Source: Candidatus Eisenbacteria bacterium (lineage in GTDB: Bacteria > Eisenbacteria > RBG-16-71-46 > SZUA-252). Taken from it: a DNA stretch of 61,367 nt. Location: assembly GCA_005893305.1 (NCBI GenBank), contig VBOZ01000028.1:1-61367 (forward strand). The letters run 5' to 3'. Positions 57,595 to 61,367 of the stretch are shown here, piece after piece (the first letter of the stretch is position 1; every line of letters starts with the position of its first letter). The position numbers were made by a program, and so were the translations under genes. The notes below the pieces were generated by a model, which was not told where the DNA came from, made no database searches, and saw only the letters and a program-made list of their open reading frames with translations.

Positions 57595-58590
57595 ATGGAT
57601 CGCCACGTCGGCCTGGATCTCGTCCGCATTACCGAATCGGCCGGCCTCGCGTGCGCCCGCTGGATGGGGCGCGGCGACAAGAACGCCGCGGACCAGGCCG
57701 CCGTCACCGCGATGCGGAAGGCGTTCGACAACGTCGACATCCGCGGCACCGTCGTGATCGGCGAAGGCGAGCGCGACGAAGCGCCGATGCTCTACATCGG
57801 CGAGCAGGTCGGCTCGGGCTGGGGTCCCGAGGTGGACATCGCGCTCGACCCTCTGGAGTGCACCAATTCGGTCGCCTACGGCAGGCCGAACGCCATGTCC
57901 GTGATCGCGCTCGCGGCGCGCGGCCACTTCCTCCATGCCCCCGACACGTACATGGAGAAGATCGCCGTCGGTCCCAAGGCGAAGGACGCGATCGACCTCG
58001 CCCGCCCCATCGAGGAGAACCTCGAGGCCGTCGCGGCCGCCAAGGGCTACCACTTGGACGACCTGACCGTGGTCGTGCTCGACCGCCCGCGGCACGAAGA
58101 GCTGATCCATCGCATCCGGCGGACCGGAGCGCGCATCCACCTGATTCCCGACGGCGACGTGTCGGCCGCGATCGCGACCGCGCTCGATTCGACCGGGGTG
58201 GACGTGCTCGTGGGAATCGGCGGAGCCCCCGAGGGCGTCCTCGCCGCGGCCGCGCTCCGCTGCCTCGGCGGAGCCATCCAGGGCCGCCTCCTCTTTCAGA
58301 ACGACGAGGAGCGCGCTCGCGCGAAGACCATGGGGGTTTCGGACTTCGATCGGATCTACAGCGAGACCGACCTGGCCCGCGGCGACTCGATCATCTTCGC
58401 CGCGACTGGCGTCACCGACGGCGACATGCTCGACGGCGTCCGCTTCTTCGGAGAGGGCGCAGAGACCCATTCGATGGTCATGCGCGTGAAGAGCGGCACC
58501 GTCCGCACGATCCAGACGAAGTACCGATACTCCCACGACTCGGAAGCCGTGCTACCCGATCTCTCACGTGCCACGTCCACCCGCGGCTGA
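57595..58590 (+). CDS. glpX: fructose-1,6-bisphosphatase class II (GlpX)
   Basis: 331 residues. IRGTVVIGEGERDEAPMLYI carries the first acidic metal set and the second lies in LDPLECTNS (about 84-92), where nearly all GlpX proteins have E-G-T; a cysteine replaces the glycine. KAKDAIDLARPIEENLEAVA and GGAPEGVLAAAALRCLGG follow as expected. Gluconeogenic phosphatase, possibly with sedoheptulose-bisphosphatase activity. The transketolase gene at the right end is a plausible pathway partner. Overlaps the deacetylase gene by 23 bases. Confidence 0.94.
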   Translation: MDRHVGLDLVRITESAGLACARWMGRGDKNAADQAAVTAMRKAFDNVDIRGTVVIGEGERDEAPMLYIGEQVGSGWGPEVDIALDPLECTNSVAYGRPNAMSVIALAARGHFLHAPDTYMEKIAVGPKAKDAIDLARPIEENLEAVAAAKGYHLDDLTVVVLDRPRHEELIHRIRRTGARIHLIPDGDVSAAIATALDSTGVDVLVGIGGAPEGVLAAAALRCLGGAIQGRLLFQNDEERARAKTMGVSDFDRIYSETDLARGDSIIFAATGVTDGDMLDGVRFFGEGAETHSMVMRVKSGTVRTIQTKYRYSHDSEAVLPDLSRATSTRG

Positions 58591-59332
58591 CAAGCCGCTC
58601 GACCTGCTCGCGATCGGGGCCCACCCCGACGACGTCGACATCAGCTGCGGCGGCACGCTCGCCCTGGCAGCCGCGCAAGGCTACGCGGTCGGAATCCTCG
58701 ATCTCACTCGGGGAGAGATGGGCACCAACGGAACGCCGGAAATGCGCGCGTCCGAGGCCGCAGAGGCAGCGCGCATTCTCGGGGCGGCCGGCCGCTGGAA
58801 CGCAGGGCTCCCGGACGGCGGGATCCGGTCTCAGGATCCGGAACAGGAGCGCCGCCTCGTCGAGCAACTCCGGCAGCTACGCCCCGCGATCCTTCTGACC
58901 CACTTTCCGCAAGATCGCCACCCCGACCACGTGCAGGCCTCGCTGATCTCGGAGCGCGCCTCGTATCTCGCGGGTCTCGCCCGTTACAAGGCGGACGGCG
59001 AGCCGTTCCGCCCGGCAGCTCGCTTCCACTACGCCTCGCGCGTCGGGTTCAACCCCACGCTCGTCATCGACGTCACGGAGATGTGGGAGAAGAAACGGTT
59101 GGCGATGCTCGCGCACAAGAGCCAGGTCACGCAGGAGGTCCCCGGAGTGGCCCCCACCCAGCTCAATCAGCCCGACTTTCTCGAGCGGATCGAATCGCGC
59201 ATGCGGCACTACGGAGGAATGATCGGGGTCCGCTACGGCGAGCCCTTCTTCTCCGACGCCCCGATGGGCGCCCGCTCCCTCGCCCCGATCTTCGGCGCCC
59301 CCCGCCCCGTTCCCGGGGCGTTTACGGGCTGA
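58568..59332 (+). CDS. PIG-L family deacetylase, BshB1-like
   Basis: 254 residues. LDLLAIGAHPDDVDISCGGT carries the zinc-binding HPDD (about 19-22), followed by LTRGEMGTNGTPE and the third ligand in HFPQDRHPDHVQAS. The pattern is that of BshB1, which deacetylates GlcNAc-malate in bacillithiol synthesis. The residue after HPDDV is Asp here where BshB1 has Glu. No bshA or bshC is in the window, so the pathway is not proven. Starts inside the glpX 3' end. Confidence 0.88.
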   Translation: MPRPPAADKPLDLLAIGAHPDDVDISCGGTLALAAAQGYAVGILDLTRGEMGTNGTPEMRASEAAEAARILGAAGRWNAGLPDGGIRSQDPEQERRLVEQLRQLRPAILLTHFPQDRHPDHVQASLISERASYLAGLARYKADGEPFRPAARFHYASRVGFNPTLVIDVTEMWEKKRLAMLAHKSQVTQEVPGVAPTQLNQPDFLERIESRMRHYGGMIGVRYGEPFFSDAPMGARSLAPIFGAPRPVPGAFTG

Positions 59333-59346
59333 CGGGCACCGACCAC

Positions 59347-59553
59347 ACGGTCTCGGGGCGTCAGCGAGATCCAACCTACGGGCGCTTTGCTTGCTCGCGG
59401 GGGAGCGGGGCGAGATGCCCGGGCGCGAGTTGAGCCGCGAGACCTTCGAGGCAGCCTCGCATAGTTTGGCCACCGGGCCTATCGCCCCACTCCCTTTTTC
59501 CGCTCGCTGCGCAGGCGCCCTGCGGTTGGATCCCGCTGACGTCCTAGGACCGC
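59347..59553. repeat. 207-bp self-complementary repeat, copy 1
   Basis: Near-identical in inverted orientation to 60310-60518, with exact blocks of about 50, 39 and 29 bases by hand alignment. The element is itself an imperfect palindrome: its two ends (GATCCAACC...GGGCGC and its reverse complement) pair over about 40 bases with roughly three quarters matching. Begins 15 bases after the BshB1-like stop. An open frame inside (from 59391) is conserved between copies, but amino-acid-changing differences outweigh silent ones, so it is probably not a gene. Confidence 0.85.
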
Positions 59554-59665
59554 TGCTTCGAGCTACATTTCACAACGCGCCGTCGATCTCCGACGACAGA
59601 GTGCTGTGGCGGCACCGAGTCGGTGGTGTCACAATCGGCGCGTAGCCCCTGCCGGAGGCTGACCC

Positions 59666-60307
59666 ATGCGCACACGACTCGCGATCACTCTCCTCCTTGG
59701 ACTCGCGACCTCGGGGCAAGCAATGGCTTCCCCGGAGACAGCCGCCGACATCCCTACGAGTCCGCCCCTATCACCCGACCATGTCTTGAAGAGCGATACG
59801 CTGGGCTGCGTCCTCACCGTTGAGCCCATCAGTCAAATGTACAGAATTCCAACGATCACGGTCGCGCTCACCAACCAAACCCGCTCCGACATCTATCTTG
59901 TCGGCAGCCTCGACGGCTCGGACAGCAAGTGGCGATACCCTCACTGCTACTTCGATGTGATTGGCCCCGACGGCAAACCGGTATCCGGTGCGTGGGTTCT
60001 CTGCCCGAGCGTCAACCCACTGGAGGGGAGGGACTTCGTTCGGGTGCCGCCCGGCGGCACGTTCGACCCTTACCATGGGGGAGCAGGGTACCCGTTCTTC
60101 GCCGCGCACCAGATCTCACCCTACACATTTCGGGTTCCAGGCAAATACCGGATACGATTCTTCTACTCCACCGCCAGCGAGGTCATGGCCGACTGGGCAT
60201 GGGATGGGCGAGAGGGACTGACCGAAAAGTTCAGCCTCGTACCCAAGGTGGAGGTGTCGAGCAACGAGGTTGTAGTCGAGGTGGCCCCACCGAGCGAGCT
60301 GCGGTAG
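59666..60307 (+). CDS. exported protein of unknown function, cargo of the repeat pair
   Basis: 213 residues. Signal peptide (RLAITLLLGLATSGQAMA, cleavage near residue 20), then a beta-rich region with IPTITVALTNQTRSDIYLVG, YFDVIGPDGKPVSGAW and YTFRVPGKYRIRFFYS, resembling an immunoglobulin-like sandwich. Two cysteines beyond the signal could form a disulfide. No family recognised. Codon use is less GC-rich than the neighbours. GGAGG lies seven bases before the ATG. It stands alone between two inverted repeat copies, suggesting that gene and repeats arrived together. Confidence 0.8.
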   Translation: MRTRLAITLLLGLATSGQAMASPETAADIPTSPPLSPDHVLKSDTLGCVLTVEPISQMYRIPTITVALTNQTRSDIYLVGSLDGSDSKWRYPHCYFDVIGPDGKPVSGAWVLCPSVNPLEGRDFVRVPPGGTFDPYHGGAGYPFFAAHQISPYTFRVPGKYRIRFFYSTASEVMADWAWDGREGLTEKFSLVPKVEVSSNEVVVEVAPPSELR

Positions 60308-60309
60308 AG

Positions 60310-60518
60310 GCGGTCCCGGGACGTCGGCCGGGATCCAACCGCAGGGCGCCTGCGCAGCGAGCGGAAAATGGGAGCGGGGCGATAGGCCCGGTGGCCAAAC
60401 TATGAGAGGTCGCCTGGAAGGAGTCCCGGCTCAACTCGCGCCCGGGCATCTCGCCCCGCTCCCCCGCGAGCAAGCACAGCGCCCGTAGGTTGGATCGCGG
60501 TTGATGTCCCGGGACCGC
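60310..60518. repeat. 208-bp self-complementary repeat, copy 2 (inverted)
   Basis: Reverse-complement partner of copy 1. The terminal arms 60310-60350 and 60478-60518 match at about 33 of 41 positions by hand, and an inner GGGAGCGGGGCGA pairs perfectly with its complement near the other side. It begins two bases after the cargo gene stop and ends 22 bases before the transketolase stop on the other strand, so it separates two converging genes and could fold into a long terminator-like hairpin for both. Confidence 0.85.
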
Positions 60519-60540
60519 TACTTCGATGCGCGTTTGCGCG

Positions 60541-61367
60541 CTAGCGCGCCTTCTTCCGCGCCAGCGCCCGATCCGCCGCCTTCACGATGTCCGGCGCTTT
60601 GATTCCGAACGCCGCCATCAGCTCGTCCTGCTTGCCCGACCTGCCGAACCGGTCGTGGACCGCGACCAGCTCCATCGGCACCGGGTGGAGGCGCACGACC
60701 GCTTCCGCCACCGCGCCCCCCAACCCTCCGTGGATCTGGTGCTCCTCCGCCGTGACGATGGCCCCGCATTCCCGCGCCGCCCGCTCGATCGCGTCCATGT
60801 CGAGCGGCTTGATCGTGTGCATGTTGATGACGCGCGCGCTGACGCCACGCTTCGCGAGCTCTTCGGCCGCGACCAAAGCTTCGTAGACCATCACCCCGCA
60901 TGCGATCAGCGCGATGTCCTTCCCTTCCCGCATGACGTTCGCCTTGCCCAGCGTGAACGGCGTCTCGGGACCGGTCACGACCGGCACCGGCTCGCGCCCA
61001 AAGCGGATGTAGTTGGGGTGGGGATCATCCGCCATCGCCACCGTCGCCTTCCGCGTCTCCCAGTAGTCGCACGGCACGATCATTCGCATGTTGGGAATGG
61101 AGCGGACGATCGCGATCTCCTCCATCGCCTGATGGGTCGCGCCGTCGGGGCCGACGCTGATCCCGCCGTGGGCGCCCCCGATCTTCACCGGCAGGTCGGT
61201 ATAGGCGACGGTCACCCGCATCTGGTCGGCACTCCGGCACGAGGCGAACGCGCCGTACGTCGCGAGGTATGGGATCTTGCCCACCGCCGCGAGGCCTGCC
61301 GCGACGCACATCATGTTCTGCTCGGCCACGCCCACCTGAAGGAAGCGGTCCGGAAACTTCTGGGCGA
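60541..61367 (-). CDS. transketolase, C-terminal subunit (partial)
   Basis: About 275 residues, 5' end cut by the window edge. VGVAEQNMMCVAAGLAAVGK and THQAMEEIAIVRSIPNMRMI are the pyrimidine-binding domain; GVSARVINMHTIKPLD and a final GRSGKQDELMAAFG-type region belong to the C-terminal domain. In many bacteria transketolase is split in two genes; the thiamine-diphosphate-binding N-terminal subunit would lie to the right. The frame is open through 61367 and the reading before VGVAEQ (KFPDRFLQ) is also conserved, so an internal start is not needed. Confidence 0.93.
   Translation of the reverse strand, partial: AQKFPDRFLQVGVAEQNMMCVAAGLAAVGKIPYLATYGAFASCRSADQMRVTVAYTDLPVKIGGAHGGISVGPDGATHQAMEEIAIVRSIPNMRMIVPCDYWETRKATVAMADDPHPNYIRFGREPVPVVTGPETPFTLGKANVMREGKDIALIACGVMVYEALVAAEELAKRGVSARVINMHTIKPLDMDAIERAARECGAIVTAEEHQIHGGLGGAVAEAVVRLHPVPMELVAVHDRFGRSGKQDELMAAFGIKAPDIVKAADRALARKKAR

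Follow-up and report, generated by a model that had tools for sequence, protein, structure and literature searches.

Two copies of a repeat of about 208 bp lie in opposite orientation around a single gene in the window, the 61,367-nucleotide stretch of DNA analysed here (contig C28 of a Candidatus Eisenbacteria genome, G000). What kind of element is this, and how did it come to bracket one gene? An earlier note had offered a mobile miniature element, a composite that carried the gene as cargo and a dispersed structured terminator. BLAST against the same genome confirmed the arrangement that the note had described: copy a (59348-59553, minus strand) matches copy b (60310-60518) in inverted orientation at 90% identity (E = 5.9e-76), and the inverted arms 59365-59535 and 60329-60499 are 94% complementary over 171 ungapped nt. 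Each copy is itself an imperfect palindrome from end to end, again as described, with a length of ~206-209 bp and fold energies of -136 to -160 kcal/mol. In 461 kb of G000 there is a single case of perfect arms of at least 16 bp around a loop of 12-120 nt, and there are none in Markov-shuffled sequence or in 392 kb of a related genome, G003. Considering this rarity against shuffled sequence and the E value, the match between the copies is not due to chance. The features of the locus are collected in Table 1.

Table 1. Features of the window locus and the other long copies in the same genome. Positions are those of the window unless a contig is named.
Feature	Position	Strand	Remarks
PIG-L deacetylase-family gene	58568..59332	+	PF02585, E 2.1e-25
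Copy a, left outer stem (locus-specific arm)	59348..59376	.	Homologous to copy b outer stem
Copy a, conserved core, long form, 147 nt	59377..59523	-	Inverted relative to copy b
Copy a, right outer stem	59524..59552	.	Partner of 59348-59376
Flank repeat GGACCGCTGCTTCGA	59547..59561	+	Direct repeat of copy b flank despite inverted cores
213-aa ORF	59666..60307	+	Start resembles a signal peptide
Copy b, left outer stem	60310..60340	.	2 nt past the stop codon of the 213-aa ORF
Copy b, conserved core, 147 nt, GCA-GGGCGCC...GCGCCC-GTA	60341..60487	+	
Copy b, right outer stem	60488..60518	.	27/31 positions pair with 60310-60340
Flank repeat GGACCGCTACTTCGA	60512..60526	+	Direct repeat of 59547-59561
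Transketolase C-terminal-half-like gene	60541..61335	-	Name from translation, not a library match; convergent with PIG-L gene
Long copy on C14	C14:59520-59685		Between NRDE-like and DtxR-like genes, convergent; names from translations
Long copy on C4	C4:28794-28964		3' of atpC, before tsaD; names from translations
Long copy on C20	C20:3955-4119		3' of cdaA, convergent with a glycosyltransferase gene; names from translations

The two copies lie between a convergent gene pair, with 15 nt separating the PIG-L gene from copy a and 22 nt separating copy b from the stop of the transketolase-like gene. The enclosed 213-aa ORF had no Pfam match at E<=1 and no homologue in 59 genomes or in plasmid records. 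In G005, a member of another genus, the PIG-L and transketolase genes are direct neighbours whose stop codons lie 18 bp from each other, and the ORF and both repeats are missing; the segment from copy a to copy b, ORF included, is therefore extra in the window, or was lost in G005. The earlier note would have thought mobility unlikely if sister genomes had the same gene and repeats at this locus; G005 has neither. The outer stems of the two copies share homology (z 5.0). The flank beyond them, GGACCGCTRCTTCGA, is repeated directly although the cores that it adjoins are inverted. Taken together, these features suggest that one hairpin was duplicated locally around an ORFan gene and that one core flipped via its own palindrome.

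Searching the rest of the genome with the two copies returned three more long copies, so the element is not confined to this locus; had it been, the earlier note would have counted that against mobility. Each is solitary, without cargo, and lies directly 3' of a stop codon, which speaks against a cargo-carrying composite as the rule. The five long cores, 151-154 nt including the closing CC/GG, are 83-93% identical. The copy a core, which on the plus strand starts with TAC-GGGCGC and ends with GCGCCC-TGC, has 93% identity to that of copy b and 83-91% to the other three. BLAST against 59 genomes found no long copy outside G000, only weak, G+C-rich chance matches.

A short relative at C14:24141-24228 of G000, within the ORF of a Y-family polymerase (polY), led to others in the congeneric genome G002. 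This short parent form, with a core of ~35-61 nt, occurs in G000, G002 and G005 and once, weakly, in G001. A covariance model was built from eight short members, stems included, and run over 47 genomes of the class. It gave 14 matches at E<0.006 (two in G000, six in G002 and six in G005) and one weak match in G001; because the training elements included their stems these matches are biased to stems, while the BLAST matches, pattern matches and flank comparisons are independent of the model. Of the remaining genomes, searched with stricter filters, five other family members gave no match, and 38 further genomes of the class gave a single chance-like one, in G033, which we rejected because it resembles another kind of long hairpin. 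That hairpin (contig C99, L183:1501-1583) has a ~25-bp stem, GGGGGAGGGCCAGAGAGGGCCC, with partial repeats of the same stem adjoining it. An exact-pattern scan had one match among genomic contigs (L059), chance-like and with no palindrome there, and none among viral contigs. No Rfam family scored above its gathering threshold; weak miRNA and sRNA look-alikes fell far below. The copy number is a lower bound: the assemblies are drafts whose contigs break at these palindromes, so that copies are underestimated. Three G002 contigs (C12, C23 and C29) begin or end within family members (L113, L104 and L095).

Family members lie mainly just 3' of stop codons or between convergent genes; some are found within polY and coaBC, where they keep the frame. 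The repeats in the window are long-form members of a protein-less, hairpin-forming interspersed family, which occurs in three or more species within a single bacterial family. The terminator proposal survives in part, as a possible effect at gene ends. It does not explain the family, because there is no U-tract (no T run follows copy a or b on either strand) and close relatives of the element stand in frame within coaBC and polY. A second example of an inverted pair was seen at G005:C126:29458-29691 (L188, L189), where 75 bp separate two short members that lie between the genes for an ABC transporter ATPase and permease; their flank GCCGCCGGTACGRGGATC is duplicated and the junction is short in relatives.

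The members share one architecture. From the outside inwards they consist of a locus-specific stem, CC, a 3x3 internal loop, a GGGCGC/GCGCCC stem and, in the short form, a C-GNA-G triloop, giving a conserved core of C-[GNA-like]-GGGCGCC ... GCGCCC-[GNA]-G. The internal loop is GNA-like on both strands (GCA/GTA, GAA/GTA, ATA/GGA, AGA/GGA, GGA/GGA), with exceptions such as GTC/AGA in G005 C102, and an inner-stem variant, GGGAGC/GCGACC, keeps its ends paired around tandem G-A mismatches. The apical triloop was found in 13 of the 14 short members folded, as CGAAG in ten and CGGAG in three, mostly within GCGAAGC. Long copies correspond to the short core plus ~100 nt in the apical region, and all five lack the GCGAAGC apex. 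Folded as single-stranded DNA, family members reach z of -7 to -11. The heptamer d(GCGAAGC) is known as a DNA mini-hairpin of extraordinary stability (Hirao et al. 1994, as cited in PMC11292364). Sheared G-A pairs give GNA/GNA loops their stability. Both properties suggest that the form that matters is a DNA rather than an RNA structure.

The outer stem behaves differently from the core. At 16 complete loci the flanks pair outward, flush with the core, over 16-31 bp. Pairing within a locus is 0.62-1.0 (~0.8) through offset 21 and falls toward background at about 22-24, whereas arms taken from different loci pair at only 0.22-0.57 from offset 3, where their similarity is mainly G richness. Stem pairs are altered on both sides between members, and stems of different loci are mostly unalignable past about 8 nt. 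Since pairing is kept while sequence differs, the outer stem belongs to the locus; positions near the core (offsets 1-2, partly 3-10) are semi-conserved, so part of the stem belongs to the element. The earlier note had observed that both arms of copy a carry GTCAGCG where copy b differs, and had taken this as a hint of maintained pairing. The observation is correct and reflects a family-wide pattern in which arms agree within a locus only; pairing is maintained locus by locus. The short target duplications that the note had thought worth looking for were not found at any of the 16 loci, where no direct duplication occurs and flush repeats reach 0-2 nt at most. Homology among all long-copy outer stems was considered and rejected: over 120 comparisons it is clear for copies a and b, and the rest are chance-like, with one ambiguous resemblance between the C14 copy and copy b (z 3.2), perhaps because the element takes more of its stem along.

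Orthologous genes reveal which arm is native. In polY, neither insert nor palindrome is present in G003, G004 and G007, and both G000 and G005 have an in-frame element at one and the same position. In G005 the left arm (GTGGGGCGTCGCGGGGGAG) extends into conserved Leu-Trp codons; its partner on the right, an inverted copy of it, is absent from the orthologues. Removing the core and one arm restores the orthologue length (about 29-30 residues from LW to RFG vs 29 in G003). The polY insertions of G000 and G005 may go back to a single ancestral event. The coaBC insert is found in G000 only, in the linker between two domains, and is absent from G001-G004 and G006-G008. In both polY and coaBC the element leaves the reading frame open. 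For cdaA and atpC of G000, the gene's own stop codon falls within the left arm, which resembles the gene ends of G002 or G005. Several relatives also lack the element at cdaA, at dapF and in an ABC operon; all of these absences come from between-species comparisons, in which exact empty sites are not readable. From these genes we infer that the outer stem arose by inverted copying of host flank, the native arm being fixed where it meets conserved coding sequence or a gene end, effectively at two or three loci. Mobility, as the earlier note had proposed it, is supported in part, by the element-free orthologous sites and the patchy distribution.

How could a gene-less hairpin come to sit in a stem made from its host? 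The explanation that we favour, at about even chances, is that these are protein-less hairpin elements whose insertion, or template switching at a later time, made an inverted copy of the host flank. In this scheme, a stable hairpin of single-stranded DNA would be attached to a host strand that had broken or stalled, or be primed from it; fold-back synthesis with the host strand as template would extend it by ~20 nt; and the new end would rejoin the other flank to give flank, core and inverted flank. Template switching during later replication could then keep the arms matched. At the window locus, one such hairpin between the PIG-L and transketolase genes would have been duplicated locally, so that its copies now bracket the ORFan, and one core would have flipped through its own palindrome. 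The fairly constant stem length, near 20 bp, leans weakly towards fold-back at insertion over later template switching. Most known transposons leave a direct duplication of their target. A bolder and more tentative proposal, possible rather than probable, is a new class of bacterial mobile hairpin, with no protein of its own, that would move as a folded single strand and mark its target with an inverted ~20-nt copy through fold-back synthesis primed by its own GNA-stabilised DNA hairpin. The search for an enzyme covered two families. Y1_Tnp (PF01797; positive control 5/14) and RVT_1 (PF00078; positive control 3/14) are both absent from the nine family genomes searched, and on these grounds a RAYT route and a retron, group II intron or DGR route were rejected.

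It is unlikely, though of the alternatives best placed, that the element instead inserts into the loops of pre-existing perfect hairpins, mostly palindromes at gene ends that resemble intrinsic terminators, the stem being the old target hairpin. Most copies do lie just past stop codons or between convergent genes, the element-free cdaA end of G002 has a hairpin overlapping the stop codon (GGCAGGGGCGTAG-gcggctcg-CTACGCCTTGCC), and CCCGGCGC..GCGCCGGG is present at the G005 PIG-L/transketolase junction. There is also precedent, as some IS elements target palindromes such as REPs (PMC1525189). Against this, most members have stems of a kind that, at 16 bp or more, is very rare in G000 and G003 at large, and element-free polY and coaBC orthologues contain no such palindrome.

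We consider it quite unlikely that an ordinary palindromic mini-element landed first, and that quasipalindrome template switching then extended and homogenised its arms into the host flank. This reading shares inverted copying of the host flank with the explanation that we favour and differs in timing alone. Template switching is known to perfect imperfect inverted repeats and has been proposed for palindromes in coding sequence (PMC6649704, in the portion consulted), and the polY stem, 24 pairs in G005 vs 16 at the same site in G000, would fit such growth. Lengths nevertheless cluster near 16-24 bp with a rather sharp end at about offset 22, more like one defined event.

Very unlikely, to our mind, is vertical inheritance of a structured element whose pairing is selected, as RNA or DNA, with compensatory stem divergence and no copying of host flank. 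The stem pairs altered on both sides and the polY copies at one place in two genera are what it would predict; it sits poorly with patchy presence at loci, with polY and cdaA arms that are native gene sequence rather than the element's, and with between-locus stems that mostly cannot be aligned, and a pairing constraint within coding sequence of coaBC and polY is hard to motivate. Least probable of all is a composite mobile unit, integron-cassette-like or a composite MITE, that carries the 213-aa gene and has copies a and b as its termini: the ORFan lies between the copies, the unit is missing in G005 and the innermost stem ATCCAAC...GTTGGAT happens to fit attC R sites, but the other long copies have no cargo, AAC/GTT is absent from G002 and G005 members, and the direct flank repeat with inverted cores indicates local duplication.

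Most bacterial palindromic mini-elements are believed to owe their movement to a transposase that works on constant ends; the ends of this family are not constant and look like mirrors of the host. REP/REPIN elements, moved by RAYT (a Y1 transposase), are gene-less hairpins at 3' gene ends with GTAG/GGAG beside the stem. The present family resembles them in all these respects, but the nine family genomes searched lack Y1_Tnp, its stem is much longer and locus-specific, and it has intragenic copies. With bacterial MITEs (ERIC, RUP, BOX, NEMIS) it shares short, non-coding, dispersed and palindromic sequence; it differs in having neither a direct target duplication nor constant transposase-type ends, and in stems that differ per copy. 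An IS-derived MITE was rejected, since constant terminal inverted repeats are not found and the stem varies by locus past its first ~2-10 nt. The earlier note's view that this is a dispersed, structured, transposase-free repeat and not a simple IS end agrees with these comparisons. An integron attC site was also rejected: the R''/R' core sites, RYYYAAC...GTTRRRY, fit copies a and b, but members in G002 and G005 have GACC/GGTC, ACCC/GGGT or other bases there.

A close likeness within coding sequence is to Rickettsia palindromic elements (RPEs), short, gene-less palindromic repeats inserted in frame in unrelated protein genes (reviewed in PMC10969869). Our family is also a gene-less palindrome in frame in ORFs, namely polY (G000, G005) and coaBC (G000). 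Compared with RPEs by their description, it has its own core sequence, a GC-rich GNA-motif hairpin, and lies mostly just past stop codons; the part of that source used here describes no locus-specific inverted copy of host flank. Mitochondria of Nematomorpha have perfect inverted repeats in coding genes, as does our family, and template switching has been proposed both for their formation and for concerted evolution of their arms (PMC6649704). The dispersed conserved central core is a property of our family that the portion of that paper drawn on does not mention for the nematomorph palindromes. Repetitive and double hairpin elements (RHE/DHE) are likewise dispersed hairpin repeats without protein; they are mitochondrial and mainly intergenic, and no inverted host-flank stem is mentioned in the passages of their description that we used (PMC2800124).

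The stem signature is unusual and would point to spreading via DNA that folds back on itself. If this is true, a conserved core within a host-copied inverted stem would be a signature of fold-back or template-switch insertion in any genome, and the spread of gene-less hairpins and the in-frame entry of palindromes into conserved genes such as coaBC would become testable.

Several other hairpins were seen in these genomes. In G005 contig C38, a perfect 30-bp stem with a 20-nt loop lies at a priA-like ORF (L246:577-656), and a 24-bp stem with a loop bounded by GTC/GGA lies 3' of atpC (L246:9063-9136); neither matches the family core. Between atpC and tsaD in G001 (C181, L170:667-739) a 19-20-bp palindrome, AACTTGCCCCGGGGCAAGT(T), occurs twice and adjoins short tandem-like GCGCTGAYYCC..CGCGAAA repeats. 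Finally, a 16-bp perfect inverted repeat in G000 (C17:51517-51582; L239:11517-11582) stands in frame in an ftsY-like ORF, before the GTPase domain. Its loop, GGA-GGGGACC...GTGTCCCC-GGA, has the family architecture with an unrelated core sequence, and the class may accordingly be defined by structure rather than by sequence.
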